From Comamonas flocculans (lineage in GTDB: Bacteria; Pseudomonadota; Gammaproteobacteria; Burkholderiales; Burkholderiaceae_C), in NCBI RefSeq assembly GCF_007954405.1, contig NZ_CP042344.1:1736001-1800000 (forward strand): a DNA stretch of 64,000 bases, given 5' to 3'. Positions 7,532 through 58,009 of this stretch are shown piece after piece. The notes below the pieces were generated by a model that had not been told where the DNA came from, did not search any database, and saw only the letters and a program-made list of their open reading frames with translations. How positions within the stretch are numbered: the stretch's first letter is position 1; every line of letters begins with the position of its first letter. Position numbers and translations under genes: made by a program.

Positions 7532-7650
7532 GTCCGCGTCGCTCCCGGCCAAGCCATGCCGTTTTGTTCTAACTGCTAGTGCCGATATCGCCTTGTTCAC
7601 CAGAGTCTAGCTGTCCACAATCCCTGGCAAAGCATTTTTTTGCCCCTGCC

Positions 7651-8352
7651 ATGCACCCCGCCGCCCCCGCCAGCCTGCGCGCCATCTCTTCGATGGCCAC
7701 GCGCGCCGTGCTGGCTGAGCTGGCGCAGGCCTGGCGCCAGCAGGGCGGTGCGGCGCTGGCGCTGCAGTCGGTGGGCGGCGTGGATGCCGCGCGCCGCGTG
7801 CGGGACGGCGAGGCGCTGGACGTGGTGCTGCTGGCCAGCGACGCCATCGACCGGCTGGTGGCCAGCGGCCACGCGCAGCCGGGCAGCAAGGTGGACTGGG
7901 TGCGCTGCGCCACCGCCGTGGCCGTGCCCGCCGGCGCGCCGCTGCCCGACATTTCCAGCGAGGCCGCGCTGCGGGCGGCGGTGCTGGCGTCGCCAGCCAT
8001 CGCCTGTTCCACCGGGCCCAGCGGCACGGCGCTGCTGCGCCTGTTCGCGCGCTGGGGCGTTGCCGACGAACTCGAAGGCCGGCTGGTGCAGGCGCGCCCT
8101 GGCGTGCCGGTGGCGCAGCTGCTTGCGCGCGGCGAGGCGGCACTGGGCTTTCAGCAACTGAGCGAATTGCTGCACGCGCCGGGCGTCAGCGTGGCGGGCG
8201 CGCTGCCGGCGGCGGTGGCGATCGACACCGTCTTTTCCGGCGCGCTGGTCTGTGGTTGCCAGGACGCCGAGGCGGCGCGGCAGTTTCTGGATTTTCTGGC
8301 CAGCCCCGCCAGCGCGCCGGCCCAGCGCCGCCACGGCATGCAGCCGCTGTGA
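7651..8352 (+). CDS. Substrate-binding-protein-like protein without signal peptide
   Basis: A 233-residue protein resembling the type 2 periplasmic-binding fold of molybdate/SBP_bac_11 proteins: GVDAARRVRDGEALDVVLLASDAID, then TGPSGTALLRLFARWG, then GEAALGFQQLSELL. No plausible signal peptide is present from the start at 7651, or from the in-frame ATG at 7579 that would add 24 residues rich in Ser, Pro and Cys. It therefore appears cytoplasmic, which is odd for a transport protein. It is the first gene of the protocatechuate operon, 30 bases before ligJ. Its role is unknown. It could be an effector-binding or catalytic protein of the pathway; the missing tautomerase step makes the latter worth testing. 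Confidence 0.75.
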   Translation: MHPAAPASLRAISSMATRAVLAELAQAWRQQGGAALALQSVGGVDAARRVRDGEALDVVLLASDAIDRLVASGHAQPGSKVDWVRCATAVAVPAGAPLPDISSEAALRAAVLASPAIACSTGPSGTALLRLFARWGVADELEGRLVQARPGVPVAQLLARGEAALGFQQLSELLHAPGVSVAGALPAAVAIDTVFSGALVCGCQDAEAARQFLDFLASPASAPAQRRHGMQPL

Positions 8353-8382
8353 GGCGGGACATCTTCAACAGGAAAGCGAGCC

Positions 8383-9411
8383 ATGATCATCGACGTGCAC
8401 GGCCACTACACCACCGCCCCCGCGGCGCTGGGCGAGTGGCGCCAGCGGCAGATTGCCGCGCTTGCGGATGCAAGCCTTCAGCCCCGGGCCTCGGAGCTGA
8501 AGATCAGCGACGACGAGATCCGCGAGAGCATCGAAGAAAACCAGCTGCGCCTGATGAAGGAGCGCGGCAGCGACCTGACCATCTTCAGCCCGCGCGCGAG
8601 CTTCATGGCGCACCACATCGGCAATTTCGAGACGTCGAGCACCTGGGCCGCGATCTGCAACGAGCTCTGCCACCGCGTGAGCGAGCTCTTCCCGGACCAT
8701 TTCGTGCCCGCCGCGATGCTGCCGCAGTCGCCCGGCGTCGACCCGGCCAGCTGCATTCCCGAGCTGGAGAAGTGCGTGCGCGAGTACGGCGCCGTCGGCA
8801 TCAACCTCAACCCCGACCCCTCGGGCGGGCACTGGAACAGCCCGCCTTTGAGCGACCGCCACTGGTACCCGATCTACGAGAAGATGGTGGAGCACGACAT
8901 CCCCGCGATGGTCCACGTGAGCACGAGCTGCAACGCCTGCTTTCACACCACCGGCGCGCACTACATCAACGCCGACACCACGGCGGTGATGCAGCTCATC
9001 CAGGGCGATCTGTTCAAGGATTTCCCCACGCTCAAGTTCCTCATTCCGCACGGCGGCGGCGCCGCGCCCTACCACTGGGGCCGCTACCGGGGCCTGGCGC
9101 AGGAATTAAAGAAGCCGCTGCTGGACACGCACCTGCTGAACAACCTCTACTTCGACACTTGCGTCTACCACCAGCCTGGCATCAATTTGCTGACCGAGGT
9201 GATCCCGGTCAAGAACATCCTGTTCGCCAGCGAAATGATAGGTGCGGTGCGCGGCATCGATCCCGAAACCGGGCACTACTACGACGACACCAAGCGCTAT
9301 GTGGAGGCCACGCAGAACCTGACGGCCGAGGAGAAGCACCAGGTCTATGAAGGCAACGCGCGGCGCGTCTTCACGCGCCTGGATGCACGGTTGAAGGCGC
9401 GGGGTTTGTAA
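8383..9411 (+). CDS. ligJ: 4-oxalomesaconate hydratase
   Basis: A 342-residue member of the amidohydrolase 2 superfamily, matching LigJ/PmdE, which adds water to 4-oxalomesaconate to give 4-carboxy-4-hydroxy-2-oxoadipate. The metal motif DVHGHYT is at residues 4-10; later metal or active-site residues are in PAMVHVS, LIPHGGGAAPYHWGR and FASEMIGAVRGIDPETG. A ribosome site (AGGAAAG) lies about 8 bases before the ATG. It is the second gene of the operon; the order ligJ-ligK here corresponds to pmdE-pmdF of Comamonas. The downstream gap to ligK holds a dispersed repeat. Confidence 0.93.
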   Translation: MIIDVHGHYTTAPAALGEWRQRQIAALADASLQPRASELKISDDEIRESIEENQLRLMKERGSDLTIFSPRASFMAHHIGNFETSSTWAAICNELCHRVSELFPDHFVPAAMLPQSPGVDPASCIPELEKCVREYGAVGINLNPDPSGGHWNSPPLSDRHWYPIYEKMVEHDIPAMVHVSTSCNACFHTTGAHYINADTTAVMQLIQGDLFKDFPTLKFLIPHGGGAAPYHWGRYRGLAQELKKPLLDTHLLNNLYFDTCVYHQPGINLLTEVIPVKNILFASEMIGAVRGIDPETGHYYDDTKRYVEATQNLTAEEKHQVYEGNARRVFTRLDARLKARGL

Positions 9412-9412
9412 T

Positions 9413-9462
9413 AAAAAGTGGCTTGAACGCTTTGCCATCAGGCGCAAGCAGCTATTGAATTG
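9413..9462 (-). repeat. Dispersed hairpin repeat, copy B
   Basis: About 50 bases fill most of the ligJ-ligK gap in reverse orientation: AAAAAGTGGCTTGAACGC, an imperfect stem, then GCAAGCAGCTATTGAA. It starts 1-2 bases after the ligJ stop. Confidence 0.6.
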
Positions 9463-9484
9463 AAAGTGTTTTGCGGGGTTTGAG

Positions 9485-10168
9485 ATGTACGAACTGGGTG
9501 TGGTCTATCGCAACATCGAGCGTGCCGATCGCGCCGCCGCCGATGCGCTGGCGCACTACGGCAGCGCCACGGTGCACGAGGCGCTGGGCAAGGTGGGCCT
9601 GCTCAAGCCCTACATGCGGCCCATCTACCCGGGCGCGCGGGTCTCGGGCACGGCGGTGACGGTGCTGCTGCAGCCGGGCGACAATTGGATGCTGCACGTC
9701 GCGGCCGAGCAGATCCGCCCGGGCGACGTGGTGGTCGCCGGCGTGACCAGCGAATGCACCGACGGCTACTTCGGCGACCTGCTGGCCACCAGCTTCAAGG
9801 CGCAGGGTGCGCGCGCCCTCATCATCGATGCGGGGGTGCGCGATGTGCGCACGCTGCACGAGATGAACTTCCCGGTCTGGAGCCGCGCGATCTCGTCCAA
9901 GGGCACGATCAAGGCGACGCTGGGTTCGGTGAACATCCCGGTGGTCTGCGCCGGCATGTGGGTGCGCCCGGGCGACGTGATCGTGGCCGACGACGACGGC
10001 ATCGTCTGCGTGCCGCGCGAGAAGGCCGAGGCCACCCTGGCGGCGGCGAAGAAGCGCGAGGACAACGAAACCGGCAAGCGTGAAATCTTCGCCAGCGGCG
10101 TGCTCGGGCTCGATTACTACAAGATGCGCGAGGGCCTGGCCAAGGCCGGGCTGCGCTACATCGACTGA
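9485..10168 (+). CDS. ligK: 4-carboxy-4-hydroxy-2-oxoadipate aldolase
   Basis: A 227-residue RraA/HMG-aldolase family enzyme that splits 4-carboxy-4-hydroxy-2-oxoadipate into pyruvate and oxaloacetate, the last step of the 4,5-cleavage pathway. Visible features are the opening [61 protein letters not shown] and the metal-binding region [12 protein letters not shown]. Its length equals known LigK/PmdF proteins. The ATG at 9485 has only a weak ribosome site because the preceding gap is occupied by a repeat. It is followed after 5 bases by the DUF1932 dehydrogenase. Confidence 0.94.
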
Positions 10169-10173
10169 GCGCC

Positions 10174-11106
10174 ATGACCATGCCCGCATCGTCCCGCGAC
10201 TGGAAGATCGGCCTCGTTGGTTATGGCGAGGTGGGCCGCATCCTGGCCGAGGATCTGCGCGCGCAGGGCGTGGCTGTTGCCGCTTACGACCTCAAGCTCG
10301 CCAGTACCGAGGCGCCGCCGCTGCGCGCACACGCCGCGCAGCATGGCGTGGCGCTGGCGGGCAGCCCCGCGCAGTTGGCCGCGGGTGCTGATTTCATTAT
10401 TTGCGCCGTCACCGCGAGCCAGACCCTGGCCGCGGCCCAGGCCTGTGCTGCGGCGGTGCGCGCGGGCGCCTTCTATCTCGACTTCAATTCCGCCTCGCCC
10501 GCCACCAAGCAGCAGGCCGCCGCCCTGATCGACGGCGCCGGTGCGCGCTACGTCGAGGGCGCGGTGATGACCAGCGTGCCGCCCTATCGCATCCGGGTGC
10601 CGCTGCTGCTGGGCGGCAGGCACGCGGCGGTACTGGCCGAGGACATCGAGCAACTGGGCTTTGCCGCGAAGGTGGCGAGCGAGCGCATCGGCGTCGCCTC
10701 GGCCACCAAGATGTGCCGCAGCGTGATGATCAAGGGGCTGGAAGCCATGGTCATCGAGAGCTTCACCGCCGCGCGCCACTACGGCGTCGAGGACGCGGTG
10801 CTCGCCTCGCTCGCCGAGACCTTTCCCGGCATCGACTGGGAAAAGCAGGGCGCGTACTTCTTTCAGCGCGTGATCGAGCATGGCCGGCGGCGCAGCGAGG
10901 AGATGTTTGAATCCGCGCGCACCGTGCGCGACGCGGGTCTGCCACCGGCCATCGCGCAGGGCGCGGCCGAGCGCCAGGCGTGGATCGCCGACCTCGCGCA
11001 GGACGGTGTGTTCGGCGAACGTGGCACCCCCGGTTTTGCGCGCAGCGCCGACTGGCGTGTCGAGGCCGACCGGTTGCTCGCCCATCTCAAGAGAGGCAAT
11101 GCATGA
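10174..11106 (+). CDS. NAD(P)-binding DUF1932 dehydrogenase in lig operon
   Basis: A 310-residue protein with an N-terminal Rossmann fold of the 6-phosphogluconate/hydroxyisobutyrate dehydrogenase type (IGLVGYGEVGRILAED, then FYLDFNSASPATK) and a C-terminal all-helical DUF1932 domain. A lysine is in the position typical of this superfamily (SATKMCRSVMIKGLEAM). It lies 5 bases after ligK, and its TGA overlaps the ATG of ligI by 4 bases, so it is clearly part of the operon. No reaction of the textbook 4,5-cleavage pathway needs it: ligC already supplies the dehydrogenase. It may oxidise or reduce a side intermediate or act on an alternative substrate; I do not assign a reaction. Confidence 0.85.
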   Translation: MTMPASSRDWKIGLVGYGEVGRILAEDLRAQGVAVAAYDLKLASTEAPPLRAHAAQHGVALAGSPAQLAAGADFIICAVTASQTLAAAQACAAAVRAGAFYLDFNSASPATKQQAAALIDGAGARYVEGAVMTSVPPYRIRVPLLLGGRHAAVLAEDIEQLGFAAKVASERIGVASATKMCRSVMIKGLEAMVIESFTAARHYGVEDAVLASLAETFPGIDWEKQGAYFFQRVIEHGRRRSEEMFESARTVRDAGLPPAIAQGAAERQAWIADLAQDGVFGERGTPGFARSADWRVEADRLLAHLKRGNA

Positions 11107-12020
11107 GCACGTTCGAGAAAACCCCCGGCTGGCTCGACTGGTACCAGAACCCGTCCAGGCCGCGCTTTCAGCTCCCGGCGGGCGCGGTGGATGCGCACTG
11201 CCATGTGTTCGGCCCGGGCGAGCAGTTCCCCTACGCGCCCGAGCGCAAGTACACGCCCTGCGACGCCGGCAAGGCGCAGCTCTTCGCGCTGCGCGATCAC
11301 CTGGGTTTTGCGCGCAACGTCATCGTGCAGGCCACCTGCCACGGTGCGGACAACCGCGCGCTGGTCGACGCGCTGCAGGCCGCGGGCGGCAGGGCGCGCG
11401 GCGTCGCCACCGTGCGCCGCGGCGTGAGCGACGAAGAACTGCAGCGCCTGCACGCGGCCGGCGTGCGCGGCGTGCGCTTCAACTTCGTCAAGCGCCTGGT
11501 CGATTTCACGCCCAGGGACGAGCTGATGGAGATTGCCGCGCGCATCAGGCCGCTGGGCTGGCACGTGGTGGTCTACTTCGAGGCGGTGGACCTGCCCGAG
11601 CTGCGGGACTTTTTCGCCGCGCTGCCGACCACGGTGGTCGTCGATCACATGGGCCGCCCCGACGTGAGCAAAGGCGTGGACAGCGAGGAATTCGCCCTGT
11701 TCCTCAAGTTCATGCGCGAGCACGACAACATCTGGAGCAAGGTGAGCTGCCCCGAGCGCCTGTCGCTCAGCGGCCCGCCGGCCCTGCAGGGCGAGCAGGC
11801 CCCCTACCGCGACGTGGTGCCCTTCGCGCGCCGCGTGGTGCAGGAGTTTCCCGAACGCGTGCTCTGGGGCACCGACTGGCCCCATCCGAACCTCAAGAAG
11901 CACATGCCCGACGACGGGCTGCTGGTCGATTTCATCGCGCACATCGCGCCCACGGCCGAGCTGCAACGCCAGCTTCTGGTGGACAACCCGATGCGCCTCT
12001 ATTGGCCTGAAGAGCACTGA
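11103..12020 (+). CDS. ligI: 2-pyrone-4,6-dicarboxylate lactonase
   Basis: A 305-residue amidohydrolase-superfamily enzyme that hydrolyses 2-pyrone-4,6-dicarboxylate to 4-oxalomesaconate. The metal motif VDAHCHVFGPG is near residue 30; further markers are QATCHGADNRAL, GVRGVRFNFVKRLVD, VVDHMGRPDVSKGVD and the C-terminal LWGTDWPHPNLK. These match LigI/PmdD. The start at 11103 is set by the 4-base overlap with the upstream dehydrogenase; a longer in-frame ORF beginning at 10980 is not credible. It is followed after 11 bases by ligA, which has a strong AAGGAG site. Confidence 0.95.
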   Translation: MSTFEKTPGWLDWYQNPSRPRFQLPAGAVDAHCHVFGPGEQFPYAPERKYTPCDAGKAQLFALRDHLGFARNVIVQATCHGADNRALVDALQAAGGRARGVATVRRGVSDEELQRLHAAGVRGVRFNFVKRLVDFTPRDELMEIAARIRPLGWHVVVYFEAVDLPELRDFFAALPTTVVVDHMGRPDVSKGVDSEEFALFLKFMREHDNIWSKVSCPERLSLSGPPALQGEQAPYRDVVPFARRVVQEFPERVLWGTDWPHPNLKKHMPDDGLLVDFIAHIAPTAELQRQLLVDNPMRLYWPEEH

Positions 12021-12031
12021 AGGAGCTTCCC

Positions 12032-13380
<1,349 letters not shown>

Positions 13381-13390
13381 GAGGAAAGAA

Positions 13391-14347
13391 ATGAGTACTC
13401 CCATCAAGGTCGCCCTGGCCGGCGCCGGGGCCTTCGGCATCAAGCACCTGGACGGCATGCGCCACATCGACGGCGTGCAGGTGGTCTCGCTCGTCGGGCG
13501 GCGCCTGGCGCCCACCGAGGAGGTGGCGCGCAAGTACGGCATTGCCCACGCCTGCACCGACCTGGCCGAGGCCCTTGCGCGCCCCGAGGTGGACGCGGTC
13601 ATCCTGTGCACGCCCACGCAGATGCACGCGGCCCAGGCCATCCAGTGCCTGGAGGCGGGCAAGCACGTGCAGGTGGAAATCCCGCTGTGCGACAAGCTCG
13701 CCGACGGCCAGCGGGTAGCGCAGGCGCAGCGCCAGAGCGGCAAGGTGGCCATGGTCGGGCACACGCGCCGCTTCAACCCGAGCCACCAGTGGGTGCACCG
13801 GCGCGTGGCCGCCGGCGCGCTGCGCATCCAGCAGATGGACGTGCAGACCTACTTCTTTCGCCGCAGCAACACCAACGCGCTGGGGCAGCCGCGCTCCTGG
13901 ACCGACCACCTGCTCTGGCACCATGCGGCGCACACCGTGGACCTGTTCGCCTGGCAGGCGGGCAGCCCCATCGTGCAGGCCCATGCGCTGCAGGGGCCGA
14001 TCCATCCCGAGCTGGGCATCGCCATGGACATGAGCATCCAGCTCAAGGCGGCCAACGGCGCGATCTGCACGCTCTCGCTGTCGTTCAACAACGACGGGCC
14101 GCTGGGCACCTTCTTTCGCTACATCGGCGACAGCGGCACCTACGTCGCCCGCTACGACGACCTGGCCGACGGGCGCGACGAGAAGATCGACGTGAGCCAG
14201 GTGGACGTCTCGATGAACGGCATCGAGCTGCAGGACCGCGAATTCTTCGCCGCCATCCGCGAGGGGCGCGAGCCCAATGCCAGCGTGGCCCAGGTGCTGC
14301 CCTGCTACGAGGTGCTCGACCAGCTCGAGCGCCAGCTCGCCGCCTGA
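13391..14347 (+). CDS. ligC: 4-carboxy-2-hydroxymuconate-6-semialdehyde dehydrogenase
   Basis: A 318-residue Gfo/Idh/MocA-family NAD(P) enzyme that oxidises the cyclic hemiacetal of the ligAB product to 2-pyrone-4,6-dicarboxylate. The N-terminal fold has VALAGAGAFGIKHLDG, then CTPTQMHAAQAIQCLEAGKHVQVEIPL with the conserved lysine-proline-type region. HTRRFNPSHQWVHRR and SWTDHLLWHHAAHTVDLF complete the family's active-site signature. It matches LigC/PmdC in length. A good ribosome site precedes the start. It is followed after 56 bases by mobA. Confidence 0.94.
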   Translation: MSTPIKVALAGAGAFGIKHLDGMRHIDGVQVVSLVGRRLAPTEEVARKYGIAHACTDLAEALARPEVDAVILCTPTQMHAAQAIQCLEAGKHVQVEIPLCDKLADGQRVAQAQRQSGKVAMVGHTRRFNPSHQWVHRRVAAGALRIQQMDVQTYFFRRSNTNALGQPRSWTDHLLWHHAAHTVDLFAWQAGSPIVQAHALQGPIHPELGIAMDMSIQLKAANGAICTLSLSFNNDGPLGTFFRYIGDSGTYVARYDDLADGRDEKIDVSQVDVSMNGIELQDREFFAAIREGREPNASVAQVLPCYEVLDQLERQLAA

Positions 14348-14403: not shown

Positions 14404-16296
14404 ATGCAGTTTCACCACCACGGCTACGTCTCCAGCGACCCGCGCGTGCAGCCCGCCGCCGGGACGGGGCTGGACCGCCCCACGCAGTTGCCCGGGGAGG
14501 TGGACGTGCTCGTCGTCGGCGCCGGGCCGGCCGGCATGATCGTCGCGGCGCAGCTGTCGCAGTTCGCCGGCATCCACACGCGCATCATCGACCGGCGGGC
14601 TTCGCGCCTGGAGATTGGCCAGGCCGACGGCATCCAGAAGCGCAGCGTCGAGACCTTCGAGGCCTTCGGCTTCGCCGACGAGATCGTCGCCGAAGGCTGC
14701 GAGGTGACGCAGACGGTGTTCTGGAAGCCCGACCCGCTGGATCCCGCGCGCATCGTGCGCGCCTCGCGCGAGCCCGAGGACGAGCACGGCGTGAGCGAGT
14801 ACCCGCACATCCTGGTCAACCAGGCGCGCGTGCTCGACTACTTTGGCCAGGTCATGCGGCGCGCGCCCACGCGCATGCAGGTCGACTACGGGCTGGAGCT
14901 GCAGGAGCTGCGGCTGGCCGAACACGGCCAATACCCGGTCAGCGCGCTGCTGCGGCACACCGCCGGGGAGCACGAGGGCCAGATGCGCACCGTGCGCGCG
15001 CGCTACGTGGTGGGCGCCGACGGCGCGCACAGCCGCGTGCGCCGCGCGGTGGGCTGCGAATTTCAGGGCAGCGCCTCCAACCACGCCTGGGGCGTGATCG
15101 ACCTGCTGGCGGTGACCGACTTTCCCGACGTGCGCACCAAGTGCGTGATCAAGTCGGGCGAGGGCGGCAGCATCCTTCTGATTCCGCGCGAAGGCGGCTT
15201 CATGTTCCGGCTCTACGTGGATCTGGGCGAGGTGGAGCCGGGCGCCGGCGGCGCGGTGCGCCAGACCACGGTGGAGCAGACTATCGCGCGCGCCCGCTCC
15301 ATCCTGCGCCCCTATGCGCTCGATGTGCGCCACGTCGCCTGGTACAGCGTGTACGAGGTCGGCCACCGCGTGTGCGACCGCTTCGACGACGTGCCGGCGC
15401 AGCAGCGCGGTGCGCGCACGCCGCGCGTGTTCATCGCCGGCGACGCCGCCCACACCCACAGCGCCAAGGCCGGGCAGGGCATGAACGTGTCCATGCAGGA
15501 CGGCTTCAACCTCGGCTGGAAGCTGGCGCACGTGCTCGAAGGGCGCAGCCCCGAGAGCCTGCTGGCCAGCTATTCGGCCGAGCGCCAGGTGATCGGGCAG
15601 GACATCATCGACTTCGACAGGCGCTGGGCCACGATGATGGCCACGCCGCCCGAGCAGCTGGGCAGCCCCGAGGAGGTCGAGGCGGCCTACGCGCAGATCA
15701 CCGAGTTCGCCCAGGGCTTCATGACGCAGTACGCACCCTCGTCCATCACCGGCAAGGCCACGTACCAGCACCTGGCCACGGGTTTCCCGATCGGCAGGCG
15801 CTTCAAGTCGGCGCGCGTGGTGCGCGTGGCCGACGCGCGGCCGCTGCACCTGGGCCATCAGGCGCGCGCCGACGGGCGCTGGCGCCTGTACGTGTTTGCC
15901 GACGCGGCGCGCGCGCACGAGGATTCGCCGGCCGCCGCGCTGGGCAGCTGGCTGGCGGATGCGCCGGAGTCGCCCGTGCGCGCCCACACGCCCGTGGGGC
16001 GGGACGACAACGCCTGGTTCGACATCAAGATCATCTACCAGCAGCCGCACGAGGCGGTTGCGATCGAGCAGGTGCCGCTGGCCTACAAGCCGCGCGTGGG
16101 CCCCTGGCAGCTGGTCGACTACGAGAACGTGTTCGCCACGCTGCCGGGGGAGGACATCTTCGCGCTGCGCGGCATCGACCGCGCCGGGGCCATCGTCGTG
16201 GTGCGCCCGGACCAATACGTCGCGCACGTGCTGCCGCTGGCCGCAAGGGCCGAGCTGGCCGCCTTCCTGCGCGGTTTCCTGCGCCCGCGCAGCTGA
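14404..16296 (+). CDS. mobA: 3-hydroxybenzoate 4-monooxygenase
   Basis: A 630-residue class A flavoprotein monooxygenase with the C-terminal thioredoxin-like domain of the phenol-hydroxylase group. From memory it resembles Comamonas MobA (about 639 residues) closely: it opens MQFHHHGYVSSDP, with VLVVGAGPAGMIVAAQL (GxGxxG), GQADGIQKRSVETFEAF, the DG motif GADGAHSRVRR and the GD motif FIAGDAAHTHSAKAGQG. The C-terminal part has LRGIDRAGAIVVVRPDQYVAHVLPL, typical of the family. It converts 3-hydroxybenzoate to protocatechuate, directly feeding ligAB. The start at 14404 replaces a much longer in-frame ORF that overlaps ligC. A related phenol-type hydroxylase is the main alternative. Confidence 0.9.
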   Translation: MQFHHHGYVSSDPRVQPAAGTGLDRPTQLPGEVDVLVVGAGPAGMIVAAQLSQFAGIHTRIIDRRASRLEIGQADGIQKRSVETFEAFGFADEIVAEGCEVTQTVFWKPDPLDPARIVRASREPEDEHGVSEYPHILVNQARVLDYFGQVMRRAPTRMQVDYGLELQELRLAEHGQYPVSALLRHTAGEHEGQMRTVRARYVVGADGAHSRVRRAVGCEFQGSASNHAWGVIDLLAVTDFPDVRTKCVIKSGEGGSILLIPREGGFMFRLYVDLGEVEPGAGGAVRQTTVEQTIARARSILRPYALDVRHVAWYSVYEVGHRVCDRFDDVPAQQRGARTPRVFIAGDAAHTHSAKAGQGMNVSMQDGFNLGWKLAHVLEGRSPESLLASYSAERQVIGQDIIDFDRRWATMMATPPEQLGSPEEVEAAYAQITEFAQGFMTQYAPSSITGKATYQHLATGFPIGRRFKSARVVRVADARPLHLGHQARADGRWRLYVFADAARAHEDSPAAALGSWLADAPESPVRAHTPVGRDDNAWFDIKIIYQQPHEAVAIEQVPLAYKPRVGPWQLVDYENVFATLPGEDIFALRGIDRAGAIVVVRPDQYVAHVLPLAARAELAAFLRGFLRPRS

Positions 16297-16333: not shown

Positions 16334-17512
16334 ATGCGACCCGTCAAAACCGCCATCCAGGCCACGCTGGTGGCCGCCGCGCTGGCCAGCGCCGGGCTGG
16401 CCCAGGCCAAGGACCTGACCATCGGCCTGGTGCTTTCGGTGTCCGGCCCGTTCGCCGCCTACGGCAAGCAGATCAAGCACGGCATCGACGTCTACATGGC
16501 CGAGCATGGCGACACCGTGGCCGGGCGCAAGGTCAAGCTCATCGTCAAGGACGACACCGGCATGGCGCCGCAGGTGGCCAAGCGCGCCGCGCAGGAGCTG
16601 CTGGTCAACGACAAGGTGGACATCCTGGCCGGGTTCGACCTCACGCCCAACGCCTTCTCCGTCGCGCCCCTGGCCACCCAGGCCAAGGTGCCTATGATCG
16701 TGATGAACGCCGCCACCTCCTCGATCACCGAAAAGTCGCCCTACATCGTGCGCGTCTCGATGACGCTGCCCCAGGGCTCGTGGGCCATGGCCAAGTGGGC
16801 GGCGGAGAACAACATCAAGTCGGCCTACACGCTGGTGGCCGACTATGGCCCCGGCCACGACGCCGAGACCCAGTTCAAGAAGACCTTCACCGAGCTCGGC
16901 GGCAAGATCGTCGGCCAGGTGCGCACCCCGGTGAACACCGCCGACTACGCCGCCTACCTGGAGCGCGTGAAGGACGCCAAGCCCGACGCCATGTTCACCT
17001 TCGTGCCGCCGGGCAGCTCCATGGTGGCGCTGATGAAGGGCTTTCGCGAGCTTGGCCTGGACAAGGCGGGCATCCAGGCCATAGGCCCGGGCGACCTGAC
17101 GGACGAGAACGAACTGGCGGCCATGGGCAATTCGGCGCTCGGGCTGATCACCGCCTTCCACTACTCGCAGGCGCACGATTCCGCCGAGAACAAGGCCTAT
17201 GTCGCTGCCTACAAGAAGGCCTTTCCCAAGGACCGCCCCAACTTCATGTCCGTGGGCGGCTACGACGGCATGCACCTGATCTACCAGGTGCTGGAGAAGA
17301 CCAAGGGCGACGCCACGGGCGACGCCTTCGTGGCCGCGGCCAAGGGCATGCAGTGGACGAGCCCGCGCGGGCCGGTGCAGATCGACCCCGAGACGCGCGA
17401 CGTGGTCCAGAACGAGTACATCCGCAAGCTCGAGGAGGTGAACGGCGAGCTGCAGAACGTCGAATTCGCCACGCTGCAGGCGGTCAAGGACCCGGGCAAG
17501 GCCGCCAAGTAA
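16334..17512 (+). CDS. LIV-type ABC binding protein, probably for aromatic acids
   Basis: A 392-residue type I periplasmic-binding protein of the LivK group. The signal peptide covers about residues 1-25 (ending AGLAQAK), followed by DLTIGLVLSVSGPFAAYGKQ, the family's standard opening, and later PMIVMNAATSSITEKSPYIVRV. A strong ribosome site (AAAGGAGA) precedes the ATG. It is the first of five importer genes placed directly after mobA. Binding proteins of this class near aromatic operons bind benzoate-like acids rather than leucine; 3- or 4-hydroxybenzoate or protocatechuate is the likely ligand, inferred from context. Confidence 0.9.
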   Translation: MRPVKTAIQATLVAAALASAGLAQAKDLTIGLVLSVSGPFAAYGKQIKHGIDVYMAEHGDTVAGRKVKLIVKDDTGMAPQVAKRAAQELLVNDKVDILAGFDLTPNAFSVAPLATQAKVPMIVMNAATSSITEKSPYIVRVSMTLPQGSWAMAKWAAENNIKSAYTLVADYGPGHDAETQFKKTFTELGGKIVGQVRTPVNTADYAAYLERVKDAKPDAMFTFVPPGSSMVALMKGFRELGLDKAGIQAIGPGDLTDENELAAMGNSALGLITAFHYSQAHDSAENKAYVAAYKKAFPKDRPNFMSVGGYDGMHLIYQVLEKTKGDATGDAFVAAAKGMQWTSPRGPVQIDPETRDVVQNEYIRKLEEVNGELQNVEFATLQAVKDPGKAAK

Positions 17513-17547: not shown

Positions 17548-18402
17548 ATGACGATCATTTTTGACGGCATCGCCTTCGGCATGCTGCTGTTTCTGATCAG
17601 CGTCGGCCTGTCGGTGACGCTCGGGCTGATGAACTTCGTCAACCTCGCGCACGGGGTGTTCGCCATGGTGGGCGGCTATGTCTGCGTGGTGCTGCTCAAT
17701 GACTGGGGGCTGCCCTTCCTCGCGACCATCCCGTTTGCCATCGTCGTGCCCGGCGTGCTCGGGGTGGTGCTGGAGCGGCTGCTGTACCGGCGCCTGTACG
17801 AGGCCTCGGCGCTCGACCAGGTGCTGTTCTCCCTCGGCCTGGTGTTCATGGCGGTGGCGGCGACGCATTACTTCTTCGGCGCGCGCCAGCAGCCGCTGCA
17901 CCTGCCCGACTTTCTCACCGGGCAGATCCACCTGCCGGGCGTGGACATCGGCGTGTACCGGCTGTTCCTCGTGGTCGCGGGCCTCATCGTCGCGGCGCTG
18001 CTGCAGTGGTCGGTGATCCGCACGCCGTTCGGTGCGCGCCTGCGCGCGGCGGTGGACAACCAGGGCACGGCGCGGGGCCTGGGCATCGACGTGAACCGGG
18101 TGTTCATGCTCACCTTCGCGCTCGGCTCGGCGCTGGCGGGCCTGGGCGGCGCGCTCGGCGTGGAAATGCTCGGGCTCGACCCGGAGTTCCCGGTCAAGTA
18201 CCTGGTGTACTTCCTCATCGTCGTCACCGTGGGTGGCGGCGGCAACATTCTCGGCTCGCTCTGGGCGGCGCTGCTGCTGGGCGTGGCCGATGTCGCGGGC
18301 AAGTACTACGTGCCGCAGGTCGGCGCCTTCATCATCTACGCCATCATGGTCGTCATCCTGATCCTGCGCCCGCAAGGTCTGTTCGGCCGTCCCCACCACT
18401 GA
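17548..18402 (+). CDS. LIV-type ABC permease LivH-like
   Basis: A 284-residue inner-membrane permease with about eight hydrophobic segments. It opens with FDGIAFGMLLFLISVGLSVT and has GLMNFVNLAHGVFAMVGGY, the LivH signature. The EAA-like loop RAAVDNQGTARGLGIDVNRVF and GGGGNILGSLWAALLLG near the C-terminus are also typical. It begins 35 bases after the binding protein and forms the translocation pore with the LivM-like subunit 9 bases downstream. Confidence 0.92.
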   Translation: MTIIFDGIAFGMLLFLISVGLSVTLGLMNFVNLAHGVFAMVGGYVCVVLLNDWGLPFLATIPFAIVVPGVLGVVLERLLYRRLYEASALDQVLFSLGLVFMAVAATHYFFGARQQPLHLPDFLTGQIHLPGVDIGVYRLFLVVAGLIVAALLQWSVIRTPFGARLRAAVDNQGTARGLGIDVNRVFMLTFALGSALAGLGGALGVEMLGLDPEFPVKYLVYFLIVVTVGGGGNILGSLWAALLLGVADVAGKYYVPQVGAFIIYAIMVVILILRPQGLFGRPHH

Positions 18403-18411
18403 GGCGCGCCC

Positions 18412-19461
18412 ATGAATTCTCCCGTCGTGCCCCAGTCCGCCAACGACGCCCGCGCGGCGCTGCACGAGACGCTGCAGCGCCAGCGCCGCTCGGCCCGCTG
18501 GCATGCGCTCGAATACCTGTTCTGGTGCCTGCCGGTGCTGGCCTACTTCCTGTTTCCCGGCAACTACCTGCTGCTCAGCCAGATTGCGATCACCAGCCTG
18601 TTTGCGCTCTCGCTGGACCTGATCTTCGGCTATGCCGGCATCATCTCGCTCGGCCATGCGGCCTTCTTCGGGGTCGGCGCCTACACCGTGGGCCTGCTTG
18701 GCCTCAGGGGCATGGGCGACCCGCTCACCGGGCTGCTGCTGGCGGCGCTGTTCGCCGCGGTGCTGGGGTTTCTGAGCAGCTTCCTGGTGCTGCGCGGCAG
18801 CGATCTGGCGCGGCTCATGGTCACGCTGGGCGTGGCGCTGATGCTCTATGAACTGGCCAACAAGTTCACCCGCATCACCGGCGGCGTGGACGGCATACCG
18901 GGCATAGAGATCAAGCCCATCCTGGGCCTGTTCGAGTTCGACATGTACGGCCGCGTGGGCTATGTCTATGCGGTGGTGGTGCTGTTCGTGCTGTTCTGGA
19001 TCGCGCGGCGGATCGTGCATTCGCCGTTCGGCCAGAGCCTGCGCGGCATCCAGATGAACGCGCAGCGCATGCCGGCACTCGGGGTGCCGGTCCATCGCCG
19101 CCTGGTGGCGGTCTACACGCTGGGCGCGGCCTACGCGGGCGTGGCCGGCGCGGTGCTGGCGCAGACCAACCAGTTCGTCTCGCTCTCGGTGCTGGGCTTC
19201 GAGAACTCGGCCGACCTGCTCCTGATCCTGATCCTGGGCGGCACCGGGCGCCTGTACGGCGGCCTGATCGGCGCCATCGTCTTCATCGTCGCCAAGCATC
19301 TGCTCTCGGACATCAATCCGCAGTACTGGCAGTTCTGGCTCGGCCTGGCGCTGGTGCTGCTGGTGATGTTCGCGCGCGGCGGCATCCTGGGCACGGCCGC
19401 GCAGTGGCTGCGCGCACGCCGCCAGCGCACGCAGCAGCGCAGCCAGGAGGGCGCGGCATGA
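18412..19461 (+). CDS. LIV-type ABC permease LivM-like
   Basis: A 349-residue second permease subunit. An N-terminal cytoplasmic stretch of about 35 residues precedes the first membrane segment (ALEYLFWCLPVLAYFLF). The LivM hallmark GYAGIISLGHAAFFGVGAY follows, and GGTGRLYGGLIGAIVFIVAKH is near the end. The tail RARRQRTQQRSQEGAA is very basic. Its TGA overlaps the ATG of the LivG-like ATPase by 4 bases, so the subunits are translationally coupled. Confidence 0.92.
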   Translation: MNSPVVPQSANDARAALHETLQRQRRSARWHALEYLFWCLPVLAYFLFPGNYLLLSQIAITSLFALSLDLIFGYAGIISLGHAAFFGVGAYTVGLLGLRGMGDPLTGLLLAALFAAVLGFLSSFLVLRGSDLARLMVTLGVALMLYELANKFTRITGGVDGIPGIEIKPILGLFEFDMYGRVGYVYAVVVLFVLFWIARRIVHSPFGQSLRGIQMNAQRMPALGVPVHRRLVAVYTLGAAYAGVAGAVLAQTNQFVSLSVLGFENSADLLLILILGGTGRLYGGLIGAIVFIVAKHLLSDINPQYWQFWLGLALVLLVMFARGGILGTAAQWLRARRQRTQQRSQEGAA

Positions 19462-20210
19462 GCACCCCGGTACTGCAGACCCATGAGCTGGTGTGCCGCT
19501 TCGGCGGCTTCGTCGCCACCGACCACGTGAACCTGTGCGTGCAGGCCGGCGCGCGCCATGCGCTGATCGGGCCCAACGGCGCGGGCAAGACGACCTTGAT
19601 CAACCTGCTCACCGGCTACCTCACGCCGACCGAGGGCCGCGTCACGCTGCTGGGCGAGGACGTGAGCGCCATGGCCCAGTGGGCGCGCTGCCGCCGCGGT
19701 CTGGTGCGCACCTTCCAGATCAACCAGCTGTTCGGCGACATGACGGTGCTCGAGTCCGTCGCCTTGTCGGCCGCCGAACGCCAGGGGCTGGGCGGGCGCT
19801 GGTGGAAGCCGCTGGCAGCCCGCGGCGAGGCGCTGGACGAGGCGGCCGCCATCCTGCAGCGCCTGGGGCTGCTGGCCGACGCCTATGAGCTCACGCGCAA
19901 CCTGGCCTATGGCCGCCAGCGCCTGATCGAGATCGCGCTGGCGCTGGCGCAACGCCCCAAGGTACTGCTGCTGGACGAACCGGCCGCCGGCGTGCCCACG
20001 AGCGAGAGCCGCGAGCTGTTCGAGGTGATCGCGCAGCTGCCGCGCGAGGTCACCATCCTGCTGATCGAACACGACATGGACCTGGTGTTCCGCTTCGCCG
20101 AGCGCATCTCGGTGCTGGTCTCGGGTGCGTTGCTGCTGGAGGACACGCCTGAGGTCATCGCCAACCACCCGCGCGTGCGCGAGGTCTATCTGGGAGAAGC
20201 CCATGCCTGA
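19458..20210 (+). CDS. LIV-type ABC ATPase LivG-like
   Basis: A 250-residue ATP-binding subunit. Walker A is GPNGAGKTT near residue 40. The family's LVRTFQINQLFGDMTVLE follows, then the region around NLAYGRQRLIEIALALA, which replaces the usual LSGGQ signature as in other LivG proteins, and Walker B VLLLDEPAAG. The last codons overlap the start of the next ATPase by 8 bases (20203-20210). It pairs with the LivF-like partner that carries a hemerythrin domain. Confidence 0.92.
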   Translation: MSTPVLQTHELVCRFGGFVATDHVNLCVQAGARHALIGPNGAGKTTLINLLTGYLTPTEGRVTLLGEDVSAMAQWARCRRGLVRTFQINQLFGDMTVLESVALSAAERQGLGGRWWKPLAARGEALDEAAAILQRLGLLADAYELTRNLAYGRQRLIEIALALAQRPKVLLLDEPAAGVPTSESRELFEVIAQLPREVTILLIEHDMDLVFRFAERISVLVSGALLLEDTPEVIANHPRVREVYLGEAHA

Positions 20211-21516
20211 GCTGCTGCAGGTGGAGGACGTCTGGGCCGGCTATGGCGACGCCATCGTGCTCGAAGAGCAGAGCTTCAGTGTCGCCGCGGGTGGCAGCCT
20301 GGCGCTGCTCGGACGCAACGGCATGGGCAAGACCACGCTGCTGACCACGCTGATGGGCGCCACGCGCCTGCGCCGCGGGCGCATCGTCTTCGATGGCGTG
20401 GACATCACGCGCATGCCCAGCCACCAGCGCGCCCGTCTGGGCCTGGGCTGGGTGCCGCAGCAGCGCGACGTCTTTCCCTCGCTCACCGTGGAAGAAAACC
20501 TGACGGTGGTGCAGCGCCCTGGCGAATGGAGCCTGGAGCGCGTGTACGCGCTGTTCCCGCGCCTGCGCGAGCGCCGCGCCAACATGGGCAACCAGCTCTC
20601 GGGCGGCGAGCGCCAGATGCTCGCCATCGGTCGCGCGCTCATGCTCAACCCGCGCATGCTGCTGCTCGACGAGCCGCTGGAGGGGCTGGCGCCCCTGATC
20701 GCGCAGGAGCTGTTGCACATCATCCAGGGCATGGTGCAGCAGGCCAGCATGGCGGTGATCCTGGTGGAGCAGCACGCGCGCCAGATCCTGCCGATCACCG
20801 AGAACGCGCTGGTGCTCGAGCGCGGGCGCATCGTCTACGCGGGCGACAGCGCCGCGCTGCTGCGCGACCGGGACAGGCTCGACGGCTGGCTGGGCGCGGG
20901 TTCGGGCGCCGAGGCCCGGCCCGCCGCCAGGCCGGAGCGCGAGCGCATCGCGGCCATCGACGTGATCCAGAACGAGCATCGCGCGATCGCCGCCGTGCTG
21001 CACGGCCTGAGCCACATCGTGCAGGGCATAGAGGCCGGAAAGATCGAGCCCAACTTCACTCTGCTTGCCAGCCTGATCGAATACATCGCCGAGATGCCCG
21101 ACAAGGTGCACCACCCCAAGGAGAACCAGATCTTCGCGCTGCTGCGCAGCAAGACGCGCGAGCTGGATGCGCAGCTGGACCGGCTGGAGGCCGAGCACCG
21201 CGACGCGGTGGCGATGACCGGCCGGCTCGACCGCGCGCTGGTCAGCTACGTGCAGGCTGGGGCGGCGGGCTTTGCCGGCTTTCGTGATGCGGCGCGCCGC
21301 TACGTGGCCGAGGAATGGGCGCACGTGGGCACCGAAGAGCGCGAGATCCTGCCCGTGGCGCGGCGCCTGTTCACGCCCGCCGAGTGGGAAGCGATCAACG
21401 CCGACTTCGCGCGCAACGGCGATCCTTGGGCGGGGGAGGGCAACCGCTACGCCGAACTGTTCAAGCGCATCACCCAGCTGGCGCCGGCGCCGATCGGCGT
21501 GGGTGAGGCACGCTGA
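20203..21516 (+). CDS. LivF-like ABC ATPase fused to hemerythrin HHE domain
   Basis: A single uninterrupted 437-residue ORF. Residues 1-235 are a complete LivF ATPase: Walker A GRNGMGKT at 37-44, signature LSGGE at 132-136, Walker B LLLDEP at about 153-158. A short linker (GSGAEARPAARPERER) leads to a C-terminal all-helical HHE domain (about 250-425). This has the di-iron ligand pattern NEHRAI (H259), HHPKEN (H303/H304, E307), EAEHRD (H332) and AHVGTEE (H374, E378). LivF proteins normally end near residue 235, so the second half is an addition. Hemerythrin domains bind O2, NO or iron. In this operon the downstream chemistry is O2- and Fe(II)-dependent, so the fusion could tie import to oxygen or iron state; that role is inference. 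The start at 20203 overlaps the LivG-like gene by 8 bases. Confidence 0.9.
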   Translation: MPELLQVEDVWAGYGDAIVLEEQSFSVAAGGSLALLGRNGMGKTTLLTTLMGATRLRRGRIVFDGVDITRMPSHQRARLGLGWVPQQRDVFPSLTVEENLTVVQRPGEWSLERVYALFPRLRERRANMGNQLSGGERQMLAIGRALMLNPRMLLLDEPLEGLAPLIAQELLHIIQGMVQQASMAVILVEQHARQILPITENALVLERGRIVYAGDSAALLRDRDRLDGWLGAGSGAEARPAARPERERIAAIDVIQNEHRAIAAVLHGLSHIVQGIEAGKIEPNFTLLASLIEYIAEMPDKVHHPKENQIFALLRSKTRELDAQLDRLEAEHRDAVAMTGRLDRALVSYVQAGAAGFAGFRDAARRYVAEEWAHVGTEEREILPVARRLFTPAEWEAINADFARNGDPWAGEGNRYAELFKRITQLAPAPIGVGEAR

Positions 21517-21541: not shown

Positions 21542-22579
21542 ATGCCCGCCAGCCTCTTGCCCCATCGCCCTCTGGGACCGTTCAGCGTGAGCGCGATCGC
21601 GCTCGGCTGCATGGGCCTGAGCCACGGTTATGGCCAGCGGCCGGACGCCGCCGGCGCGAAGGCGCTGGTGCACGCGGCGCTGGACGCCGGAGTCACCCTG
21701 TTCGACACCGCGGCACTCTACGGCTTTGGTGCCAACGAATCGCTGCTCGGGCCGCTGCTGCGCGCGCACCGTGCGCGCATCACGCTGGCCAGCAAGGGCG
21801 GGCTCGCCGGCGTGCCCGACCCCGAAGACGGGGTATTGCGCCGCAGCATGGACGGGCGCCCCGAGGCCATCCGGCGCGACTGCGAGGCCAGCCTGCGGCG
21901 CCTGGGCACCGAGGTGATCGACCTGTACTACCTGCACCGCTGGGACCGGCGCGTGCCGATCGAGGAGTCGGTGGGCGCGATGGCGCGCCTCAAGCAGGAG
22001 GGCAAGATCCGCGCGCTGGGCCTGTCCGAGGTGGCTGCGGCGACGCTGCGCCGTGCCCAGCGCGAGCATCCCATCGCCGCGCTGCAGAGCGAGTATTCAT
22101 TGTGGTCGCGCAATGCCGAGCTGGGCACGCTGGCGGCCTGCAAGGAACTGGGCATCGCCTATGTGGCTTTCAGCCCGCTGGGACGGGGTTTTCTCGCCGG
22201 TGCGCTGCAAGACCCGGGCAGCCTGCAGGCGGGCGACTTGCGCACCCGGATGCCGCGCTTCGCGCCCGACGCCTTCGCGCGCAATCGCCAGCATCTGCTC
22301 GCGCCGCTGCAGGCGCTTGCGCAGCGCCTGGGCTGCACGCCGGCGCAGCTGGCACTGGCCTGGCTGCTGCACCAGGGTGATCAAGTGATCGCGCTCACCG
22401 GCACCACGCAGGCCGCGCACCTGCACGAAAGCCTGGGGGCGGCGGCGCTGGCGCTGGATGCGGCCACGCTGGCCGAGCTCGACGCGCTGTTCGCGCCCGA
22501 ACGCGTCGCCGGCGAGCGCTATGCGCTGGCGGCGCAGCGCGAGGTCGATACGGAAAAATTCCCCTTCGAAAGCGCCTGA
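21542..22579 (+). CDS. Aldo/keto reductase
   Basis: A 345-residue NADPH-dependent aldo/keto reductase of the AKR13/YajO-like group. The catalytic tetrad is visible: D55 and Y60 in FDTAALYG, K85 in ASKGG and H132 in YYLHRWD. The cofactor region is near ALTGTTQAAHLHESLGA. The start at 21542 gives the normal N-terminus PHRPLGPFSVSAIALGCMGLS; the 90-residue upstream extension in frame overlaps the hemerythrin domain and is rejected. It begins 25 bases after the LivF fusion on the same strand and may be the last gene of the aromatic operon, perhaps reducing an aromatic aldehyde. That substrate is a guess from position. Confidence 0.88.
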   Translation: MPASLLPHRPLGPFSVSAIALGCMGLSHGYGQRPDAAGAKALVHAALDAGVTLFDTAALYGFGANESLLGPLLRAHRARITLASKGGLAGVPDPEDGVLRRSMDGRPEAIRRDCEASLRRLGTEVIDLYYLHRWDRRVPIEESVGAMARLKQEGKIRALGLSEVAAATLRRAQREHPIAALQSEYSLWSRNAELGTLAACKELGIAYVAFSPLGRGFLAGALQDPGSLQAGDLRTRMPRFAPDAFARNRQHLLAPLQALAQRLGCTPAQLALAWLLHQGDQVIALTGTTQAAHLHESLGAAALALDAATLAELDALFAPERVAGERYALAAQREVDTEKFPFESA

Positions 22580-56032: not shown

Positions 56033-58009
56033 TCAGCGCTGCGCCTTGACCTCGTCGGCCGTCACCAGCTTGGCCTTGTTGCCCCACTGGGTGCGCTCAT
56101 GGTTGGCGATGTCGGCCACGTCGGCGTCCGACAGCGCGCCGCCAAACGGCGGCATGGGGCTGGGGTAGCTCACGCCGTCGATGACCTCGCCGCTCACGCC
56201 GTGCAGGATGGCGCGGATGTGCTTGGTGCCGTCCGCAGCCAGCACCGCCGGGTTCTTGATCAGCGGCGGGAAGGCGCCCGGCAGCCCTTCGCCATTGGCC
56301 TGGTGGCAGGCCGCGCAGGTGCTGGTGTAGAGCTGCGCGCCGCGCTCTGCGTCGAACTTGTAGGGGCCGGCCGCGGCCGCGGGTGGCGCTGCCGCGGCGG
56401 CGCTGGCGTGGCCTTCGATCTTGGAAATCTTGGGCTTGACGAAGTTGTCCGGGTTGCCGATGCGCAGCGAGCCGGCCGCGCCCTTTTCAAGGTGGGCGAA
56501 GGAGTGGTCCACGAAGACGTAGTTGCCCACGTCCGGAATCACCACGTCGAAGACGATGCCCTCGCCCGGCCCCACGCTGTAGGTGGAGACGCCGCTGAGC
56601 GCGTTCTTCGGGTTGCCGTCCGGATAGACCTTGTCGAAGATCGCGCCGATCACGTGGAAGGCGCTCCAGAGGCTCGGGCCGGCGTTGACCACGTACAGGC
56701 GCACGCGCTCATTGGGTTCGGCGGTGAGCGGATGGTCCTGGTACTGGAAGGCCACGCCGTTGAAGGCGACGATGTCGGGCTGGATCCTCTCCATCTTGCC
56801 GAAATCCGGACCCATCAGGTTGCCCGAAATCTGCCGCGTGTACCACTCGCTTTGCACCAGCACGTATTCCTTGTCGGCCTTGGGGCGCGGGTCGTCGGCA
56901 GGGTCGACGATGATGGCGCCGTACATGCCGTTGGCCATGTGCAGCAGCACCGGCGGCGTGCCGCAGTGGTAGACGAAGGTGCCGGGCACCTTGGCCTCGA
57001 AGGTGAACTCGATCTGCTCGCCCGGGTTGATGTCGGCAAAGCTGGTGTTGGGCGGGGTGAAGGCCGAGTGGAAGTCGATGGAGTGGTGCATCGAAGCCTT
57101 GTTGGCCAGCACCACCCGCACCATCTGGCCCTGCTTGACGTGGATGACCGGGCCGGGCACCGTACCGCCGTAGGGCCAGGCCTGGTACTTGACGCCGCTG
57201 GCGATTTCCACCGCCTCGTCGGTCACGTCGATGGTGACCAGCACTTCCTTGTCGCTGGTCAGCGGCGGCAGCGTCGCGTCGAAGGCCTTCTTGACCGGCT
57301 CCTTGCTCATCAGCTGCAGCGGCGACACCGCCGCGGCCGCTGCAGCGGGGGTGGGCGCCTTCACGTTCATGCTGCTTTGCAGGCCGGCCACCAGGAAGAA
57401 GACGACGGCGGCCACGCCCAGCAGGATGCCGGTCTGCGCCCACCACGCGACGCGCGGCGCGTCCGACAGGCGCCGTTCGCGCCATTCGGCGATCCAGCTC
57501 CAGGCCGGCCACTTGCGCTCGATGAAGTAGTCGACGCTGTAGGGGCTGGTGCCGCTGCGGTGGTTGATGGCGATCAGCACCGCGAAGACCAGCACGTAGA
57601 TGATGCCCACGCCGGTGTTGGATGCGCCTATGGTGTAGGGGCCGCCGAAGCCGCCCGCGGTGCTCCAGATCAGCAGGCTGTAGAGCGCGCCGATCACGTA
57701 CACCGTGCGTCGCGCGAAGCCGAAGAGCAGGGCGAGCGCCAGCAGCGTGGTGGCGATGCGCGTGAGCCACAAAAAGGTGTCGGCGCGCGGCTCGACGATG
57801 GCGATCCAGGTGTCGAACCACCAGGCCGACCATGCGGGCTGGCCGTCGGCGGCGTTGCGCAGATAGCCCGCGTAGTTGTCGGCGAAGCTGGGCATCCAGG
57901 TGAACGCGGCGTTCACGATCCAGATGATGCCGAAGGCGACGCGCAGCGCCGCGGTGGAAAGCGCCGGCCAGGTATCTGGAGCCGGACTGGTTGGGGTTTG
58001 GGTACTCAT
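56033..58009 (-). CDS. nirK: Membrane-anchored copper nitrite reductase with fused cytochrome c
   Basis: A 658-residue three-part protein. Residues about 18-150 form a four-helix membrane domain of DoxX-like appearance, with a fifth helix at about 193-211. Residues about 250-520 are a two-domain cupredoxin nitrite reductase with all ligands: type 1 copper H309, C349, H357, M362; type 2 copper H314, H348, H502; catalytic D312 and H452. Residues about 550-645 are a cytochrome c domain with CAACH (565-569) and a likely axial methionine in SPMPPFGG (M619). It reduces nitrite to nitric oxide, probably taking electrons internally from the heme, and sits on the periplasmic face. Usual NirK proteins are soluble and about 360-380 residues. 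The start has an AGGAAG site. Confidence 0.9.

Follow-up and report, generated by a model that had tools for sequence, protein, structure and literature searches.

In Comamonas flocculans, a LivF-type ABC ATPase domain is joined in one protein to a hemerythrin (HHE) domain, and this LivF-HHE fusion is one version of a gene pair that is itself conserved: at most LivF-linked loci the HHE is encoded by a separate gene, the last in the cassette SBP-LivH-LivM-LivG-LivF-HHE. The fusion, together with the neighbouring separate genes, suggests that the HHE domain is a member of the importer. A hemerythrin domain on the motor of a nutrient importer is a location for which we found no description, and with it the unexplained HHE gene of aromatic operons gains a physical partner.

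The fused gene (20203-21516, + strand) lies in the window, by which we mean the whole stretch of 64,000 nucleotides that was analysed. As the earlier note had claimed, LivF and hemerythrin share one unbroken ORF (437 aa, zero internal stops), in which Pfam recognizes two domains, ABC_tran (residues 21-159, E 1.6e-30) and Hemerythrin PF01814 (residues 251-385, E 1.1e-13, 52.3 bits, above the gathering cut-off of 25.3). The parts of the protein are as follows.

20203..20895, + strand: LivF-type ABC ATPase domain, residues 1-231 (Pfam ABC_tran; Walker A, LSGGE, Walker B, H-loop)
20896..20949, + strand: flexible linker, residues 232-249 (alignment of 41 fusions; AlphaFold2 pLDDT)
20950..21516, + strand: hemerythrin HHE domain with a conserved C-terminal tail, residues 250-437 plus stop (PF01814)

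The core motifs of the ATPase, as well as the substrate-binding protein (SBP), two BPD_transp_2 permeases and second ATPase encoded directly upstream, place the protein among the ATPases of Liv-type ABC importers. The ABC motifs are invariant across the 41 aligned fusions, and the best solved-structure match of the LivF part is 1ji0. The fused protein reaches neither the LivF equivalog NF008626 of amino-acid importers (184.5 versus 441 bits) nor the UrtE model (219.9 versus 285.8 bits); by these scores the ATPase is LivF-like, and the two models assign it no substrate class. In the AlphaFold2 model both domains are folded (mean pLDDT 85.3; 92.1 for the HHE domain modelled alone), linker residues 232-246 are predicted to be disordered (pLDDT under 50), and the relative domain orientation is not fixed by the model (pTM 0.55 for the whole protein). 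The linker (232-250) is 11-32 residues long in the 41 fusions, with a mean commonest-residue frequency of 0.40 versus 0.85 and 0.73-0.75 in the domains. Being variable and disordered, it argues for a tether and against a rigid joint.

The fused gene is part of a protocatechuate 4,5-cleavage operon that encodes an importer of its own. The features of this region are listed below.

8383..12020, + strand: LigJ-, LigK- and LigI-type genes plus one dehydrogenase (LigK TIGR02798 over cut-off; Amidohydro_2 for the two genes that we take to be LigJ and LigI)
12032..12472, + strand: LigA, protocatechuate 4,5-dioxygenase alpha subunit (TIGR02792 over cut-off; PF07746)
12474..13346, + strand: LigB, protocatechuate 4,5-dioxygenase beta subunit (PF02900; NF009903, class III extradiol dioxygenase subunit beta, over cut-off)
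13391..14347, + strand: dehydrogenase, presumably of the LigC type (GFO_IDH_MocA and OxRdtase_C)
14404..16296, + strand: flavin monooxygenase of the phenol hydroxylase / 3-hydroxybenzoate 4-hydroxylase type, for which we assume the type name MobA (FAD_binding_3, Phe_hydrox_dim)
16334..17512, + strand: periplasmic SBP of the importer (Peripla_BP_6)
17548..18402, + strand: LivH permease (BPD_transp_2)
18412..19461, + strand: LivM permease (BPD_transp_2)
19458..20210, + strand: LivG ATPase (ORF; ABC_tran and BCA_ABC_TP_C)
21587..22579, + strand: aldo/keto reductase, start codon uncertain (PF00248)

LivG shares its last 8 nt with the beginning of LivF-HHE. The extradiol dioxygenase and the flavin monooxygenase to which the earlier note had pointed belong to the same operon and lie upstream of the importer cassette, LigB at a distance of about 7 kb from the fused gene and the monooxygenase of about 4 kb. 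The latter scores 980 bits with NF006144 (cut-off 560; NCBIfam subfamily 'phenol 2-monooxygenase'), and its relatives occur at only two of the 80 named loci described below (L009, L017) and at none of L129-L144; relatives of the aldo/keto reductase, 80-81% identical, are present in L010 and L019 too. Judging from the operon, the importer substrate is probably protocatechuate or a hydroxybenzoate. Another solute-binding protein gene, of the SBP_bac_11 family (7579-8352, + strand), lies just upstream of the lig genes, beside a LysR-type regulator.

A search of genome contigs yielded 251 HHE loci in named genomes, the best 80 of which were analysed. LivF is upstream of the HHE or fused to it at 70 of these 80 (11 fused, 58 with a separate HHE gene, one split, L017), and at 56 of the 58 separate-gene loci the distance between the LivF stop and a start codon is -4 to +48 nt. 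Residues 238-437 of the fused protein, used as the query of a protein search, gave 91 matches (protein clusters from several sources); 52 of them, 419-451 aa long, contain Walker A, the signature motif and HHE, arranged as in the window's protein, and P0019 (348 aa), counted besides these, is a shorter piece of the same kind. An assembly error or frameshift joining two genes, a danger to which the earlier note itself had pointed, is ruled out for practical purposes by 52 intact fusions among 91 protein clusters of several sources and by their single group in the HHE tree. Even where the HHE part has diverged to about 49% identity, the fusion persists and every ligand is retained; its hosts are Comamonas, Castellaniella, other Alcaligenaceae and one Oxalobacteraceae MAG. 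For P0057, the source name in the database already states both domains. Other matches have HHE joined to UspA-type domains. In P0064 (599 aa), HHE stands in front of a PobA-type, 4-hydroxybenzoate 3-monooxygenase-like FAD monooxygenase whose sequence is 48% identical to the window's PobA-like protein; by its domain content it is another join of HHE with aromatic metabolism. In the single sequence P0082 (435 aa, from a 1.9-kb contig) the order is the reverse, with HHE in front of LivF.

The HHE tree (131 rows) and the LivF tree (86 rows), both quick searches without bootstrap, fit a single fusion event. In the former, 24 fused rows (23 of them different, some being near-copies) form one group with L017 (SH-aLRT 96), which nests in an 80-row group with 78 LivF-linked rows. 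The two rows of that group with no LivF link seen, L038 and L073, come from contigs of 3.5 and 5.7 kb; L073 has a mere 0.2 kb of upstream DNA, and no LivF is found in the 2.4 kb upstream of L038. In L017, a Castellaniella MAG, a monooxygenase gene (7907-9778) separates LivF from an HHE that retains all ligands; as L017 sits within the fused group, it looks like a later split. Three lineages of the LivF tree have HHE partners, and in L050 an HHE of one lineage is paired with a LivF of another; the LivF of P0082 is placed next to the LivF of L050, in a third lineage. In L023, the LivF-linked HHE gene is closely followed by another, shorter hemerythrin gene (8174-8644), and some other Thauera/Zoogloea loci are similar.

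The pair goes with several O2-dependent aromatic pathways. The proposal that the fusion tracks lig operons holds, in addition to the window, for all nine named fused loci with enough upstream DNA (L009-L014, L016, L018 and L019); two further fused loci, L015 and L020, are too short and were excluded from this count. Separate HHE genes accompany gentisate dioxygenase and 3-hydroxybenzoate 6-monooxygenase at 15 loci (one such monooxygenase, when tested, gave 695 bits with NF006021 versus a cut-off of 459), catechol 2,3-dioxygenase and/or benzoate dioxygenase genes at another 15 (L056 having BenC alone), and lig genes in L028, L081, L135 and L136 (L032 having LigJ alone). Within one LivF lineage the cassette is constant while the catabolic genes vary from lig to gentisate plus 3-hydroxybenzoate 6-monooxygenase and Rieske types. 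The pair is also found in Rieske-type (L045, L071 and, by the same gene families, L084), AurF-type (L050) and CoA-ligase (L088) clusters, which weakens the idea that HHE is tied only to Fe(II) ring-cleavage dioxygenases. The claim that HHE accompanies the importer in O2-dependent aromatic operons is upheld by gene order as well as by fusion. An oxygenase is near 46 of the 70 LivF-linked loci versus none of the 10 others, a contrast that is biased in favour, since the probes themselves derive from the window, LivF-linked loci or box loci; of the 24 LivF-linked loci where no oxygenase was found, 21 end at a contig edge, while L057, L066 and L088 do not.

In 14 chosen genomes of Thauera, Azoarcus, Aromatoleum, Azonexus and Rhodoferax, scanned for benzoyl-CoA reductase and boxB, none of six benzoyl-CoA-reductase-like matches (only one of which is over the family cut-off) has an HHE within 20 kb on its contig. 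Four of the six boxB matches, in four Aromatoleum genomes (L139-L142), have an HHE gene of a more distant kind 2.7-3.9 kb downstream. No LivF match lies beside the HHE at these four loci, three of which end 1.4-3.4 kb after it, and L139 has one weak LivF match 7 kb downstream. The domain can therefore stand in aerobic aromatic operons without the importer, which counts against a purely importer-bound role. Conversely, such importers exist without HHE: in the 399 genomes of the order, LivF has 10 close relatives, six of which lack it; three of the six HHE-less loci have Rieske genes and one a LigB-type gene. The lig context is seen at four of four HHE-plus LivF loci (one of them the window) versus a LigB-type gene at one of the six HHE-minus loci, for which 20 neighbour proteins were scanned; the loci in this comparison are too few, and too little independent, to carry much weight. 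As to the SBP, the order has 50 places with relatives of it, only four of them with an HHE in the vicinity; an HHE partner is thus no fixed requirement of this SBP family.

All the ligand residues proposed for the di-iron site in the earlier note (H259, H303/H304, E307, H332, H374, E378) are present at the positions that it named. With H303 as the second histidine, these six are invariant in 131 of 131 aligned HHE rows and kept in every fusion; among the 91 matches, the non-fused P0090 departs at 374. The domain is likely of the di-iron type, with the same six residues as likely ligands. The structural matches of its model were 2p0n, 3cax and then FBXL5, a eukaryotic ubiquitin-ligase subunit; the hemerythrin domain of the latter (PDB 3v5z) is 14% identical to the fusion's HHE, and designed helical bundles reach the same Z. 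With the whole protein, Foldseek matches were filled by ABC ATPases, and with the HHE domain alone the best match had E 0.019. YtfE is absent among the structural matches listed for the HHE domain, which we do not weigh as evidence; comparing the HHE sequence with those in the PDB gave nothing reliable (eight profile matches up to E 10, none of them YtfE). When 78 LivF-linked HHE rows were compared with 34 others (seven LivF-adjacent rows outside the main group, L038, L073 and non-LivF fusions being in neither set), only A261 and K301 set the former apart at the thresholds used, and hence no docking surface is evident.

With its four His and two Glu, the fusion's HHE has di-iron ligands at a spacing similar to that of YtfE/RIC (H84, H129, E133, H160, H204 and E208; PMC9268430); the ScdA N-terminal domain is absent, the linker and LivF preceding HHE instead. 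The O2-sensing bacteriohemerythrins have the motif H-HxxxE-HxxxH-HxxxxD (PMC9388753), from which the fusion departs by V336 in place of the second His of HxxxH and by H374-x4-E379 instead of Asp, so that the fifth His and HxxxxD of O2-binding hemerythrins are missing. By these residues, the ligand set is that of YtfE and not that of the O2-carrying hemerythrins. YtfE is described both as an iron-repair protein or iron donor (PMC9268430) and as a nitrite reductase (PMC9052748), so that for the HHE considered here NO or nitrite merits as much attention as O2.

Denitrification markers are frequent in the organisms that carry the pair. Among 50 carrier genomes, chosen from the 70 LivF-linked loci mainly for longer contigs and fewer near-duplicates, 35 have a NosZ match (E up to 1e-50) versus 69 of 399 genomes of the order, and 28 versus 39 of 399 have one over the cut-off; kinship confounds both contrasts, a large share of the carriers being Thauera, Aromatoleum, Zoogloea and Castellaniella. 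Of the 15 carriers in which NosZ is missing, seven score over the cut-off for NirS or NirK, and at least one marker (NosZ, NirS or NirK) is present in 42 of 50, a figure that has no Nir background. The window's own genome has NirS and lacks NosZ; neither NosZ nor a Nir marker was found in G396. Many carriers probably live at the oxic/anoxic border.

Our tentative reading, to which we give somewhat less than even credence, is that HHE acts as an accessory of the importer and that its di-iron state, responding to O2, redox or NO, controls aromatic-acid uptake. The gene product would then be the LivF ATPase of a Liv-type aromatic-acid importer, flexibly tethered to a di-iron-type HHE that serves as an accessory subunit on the cytoplasmic side; O2, redox state or NO would set the di-iron state, this state would raise or lower uptake, and the substrate would enter mainly when the O2-dependent pathway can run. 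More specifically, the fusion could be a built-in di-iron O2/NO/redox sensor that switches aromatic uptake at the ATPase, a transporter-level oxygen checkpoint of facultative denitrifiers, which we regard as doubtful. If the di-iron state alters the ATPase rate, oxygen would control substrate uptake at a post-translational level, which, if true, would also be of relevance to engineering the aerobic degradation of lignin-derived aromatics under fluctuating O2.

Uptake control is suggested by the conserved, ligand-complete fusion, the LivF link at 70 of 80 loci, the re-pairing in L050 and the reversed P0082, and likewise by the nearby oxygenases, the lack of HHE by benzoyl-CoA-reductase-like genes and the NosZ in carriers. 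The disordered linker, the lack of an evident docking surface, the departure from the O2-carrier motif and the kinship-confounded NosZ contrast speak against it, as do the box HHE without LivF, the HHE-less LivF and SBP relatives, L038 and the window's genome without NosZ. An extra C-terminal domain on an importer ATPase has parallels in MalK, ModC and MetN, whose C-terminal domains are regulatory, of beta- or ACT-type; none of them is known to be a hemerythrin. O2-sensing bacteriohemerythrins in turn use the hemerythrin fold as a cytoplasmic sensor that is attached to an effector (PMC9388753).

The statement of the earlier note that it knew of no described importer with such a sensor has to be qualified, as separate HHE genes beside benzoate importers were published in 2019 (PMC6449761): that paper describes a COG3945 HHE gene which shares an operon or cluster with putative benzoate ABC importers of Rhodocyclales and Rhodoferax, and suggests for it protection or a role of oxygen store/scavenger, while also calling the role unclear. 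There the HHE is separate and the clusters are ben/box; the HHE of the window, by contrast, is joined to LivF and belongs to a lig operon, and the pair extends to gentisate and Rieske-type clusters. Our literature search, in which subscription journals were mostly outside the coverage, gave no description of a LivF-hemerythrin fusion or of HHE in lig/gentisate operons.

A rival explanation is only slightly less probable than uptake control: HHE could be a local protective, scavenging or repair protein (O2 buffer, or acting on NO/nitrite or peroxide) that serves the O2-dependent aromatic enzymes and came to be on LivF only through operon adjacency. The YtfE-like ligand spacing, the functions reported for YtfE (PMC9268430, PMC9052748), the denitrification genes of many carriers and the role proposed before (PMC6449761) are consistent with it, and so are the HHE of box operons without LivF and the HHE fusions to the PobA-type monooxygenase (P0064) and to UspA-type proteins. 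Nevertheless, HHE stays beside LivF while the catabolic genes change, and it has been re-paired with another LivF lineage; the constancy of the cassette puts uptake control slightly ahead of a protective or repair role.

It is improbable that HHE serves as an iron donor or iron store for the operon's Fe-dependent oxygenases. Many of the operons do encode such enzymes, of unrelated folds (LigB, gentisate dioxygenase, catechol 2,3-dioxygenase and Rieske oxygenases are all Fe-dependent), but the attachment to LivF would be left without a reason, the PobA-type fusion partner is a flavoenzyme without iron, and Rieske or LigB-type genes are present at four of the six HHE-less LivF loci. A passive fusion, in which two neighbouring genes merged when a stop codon was lost and nothing depends on the join, is a little less probable still: genes with such short gaps are a ready source, the parts are separate again in L017 and the linker is poorly conserved, yet the join is kept over the whole range of HHE identity given above with all ligands intact. 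Feedback inhibition of the importer by the imported acid bound at the HHE iron site would agree with the linkage of HHE to importers in operons for several substrates, with the iron-binding chemistry of hydroxybenzoates and catechols and with the feedback inhibition exerted by C-terminal regulatory domains of other importer ATPases, but is very unlikely, the same ligand residues being present in HHE genes away from any importer.

Two more genes of the window's genome should be mentioned. Outside the window, a second, stand-alone HHE gene (L138, G000 C1:1851199-1851768), 34% identical, has no importer gene match around it. Inside the window, the product of 56459-57253 (- strand) scores 181.5 bits with a copper nitrite reductase model, below the cut-off of 296.3, and is probably some other multicopper protein.
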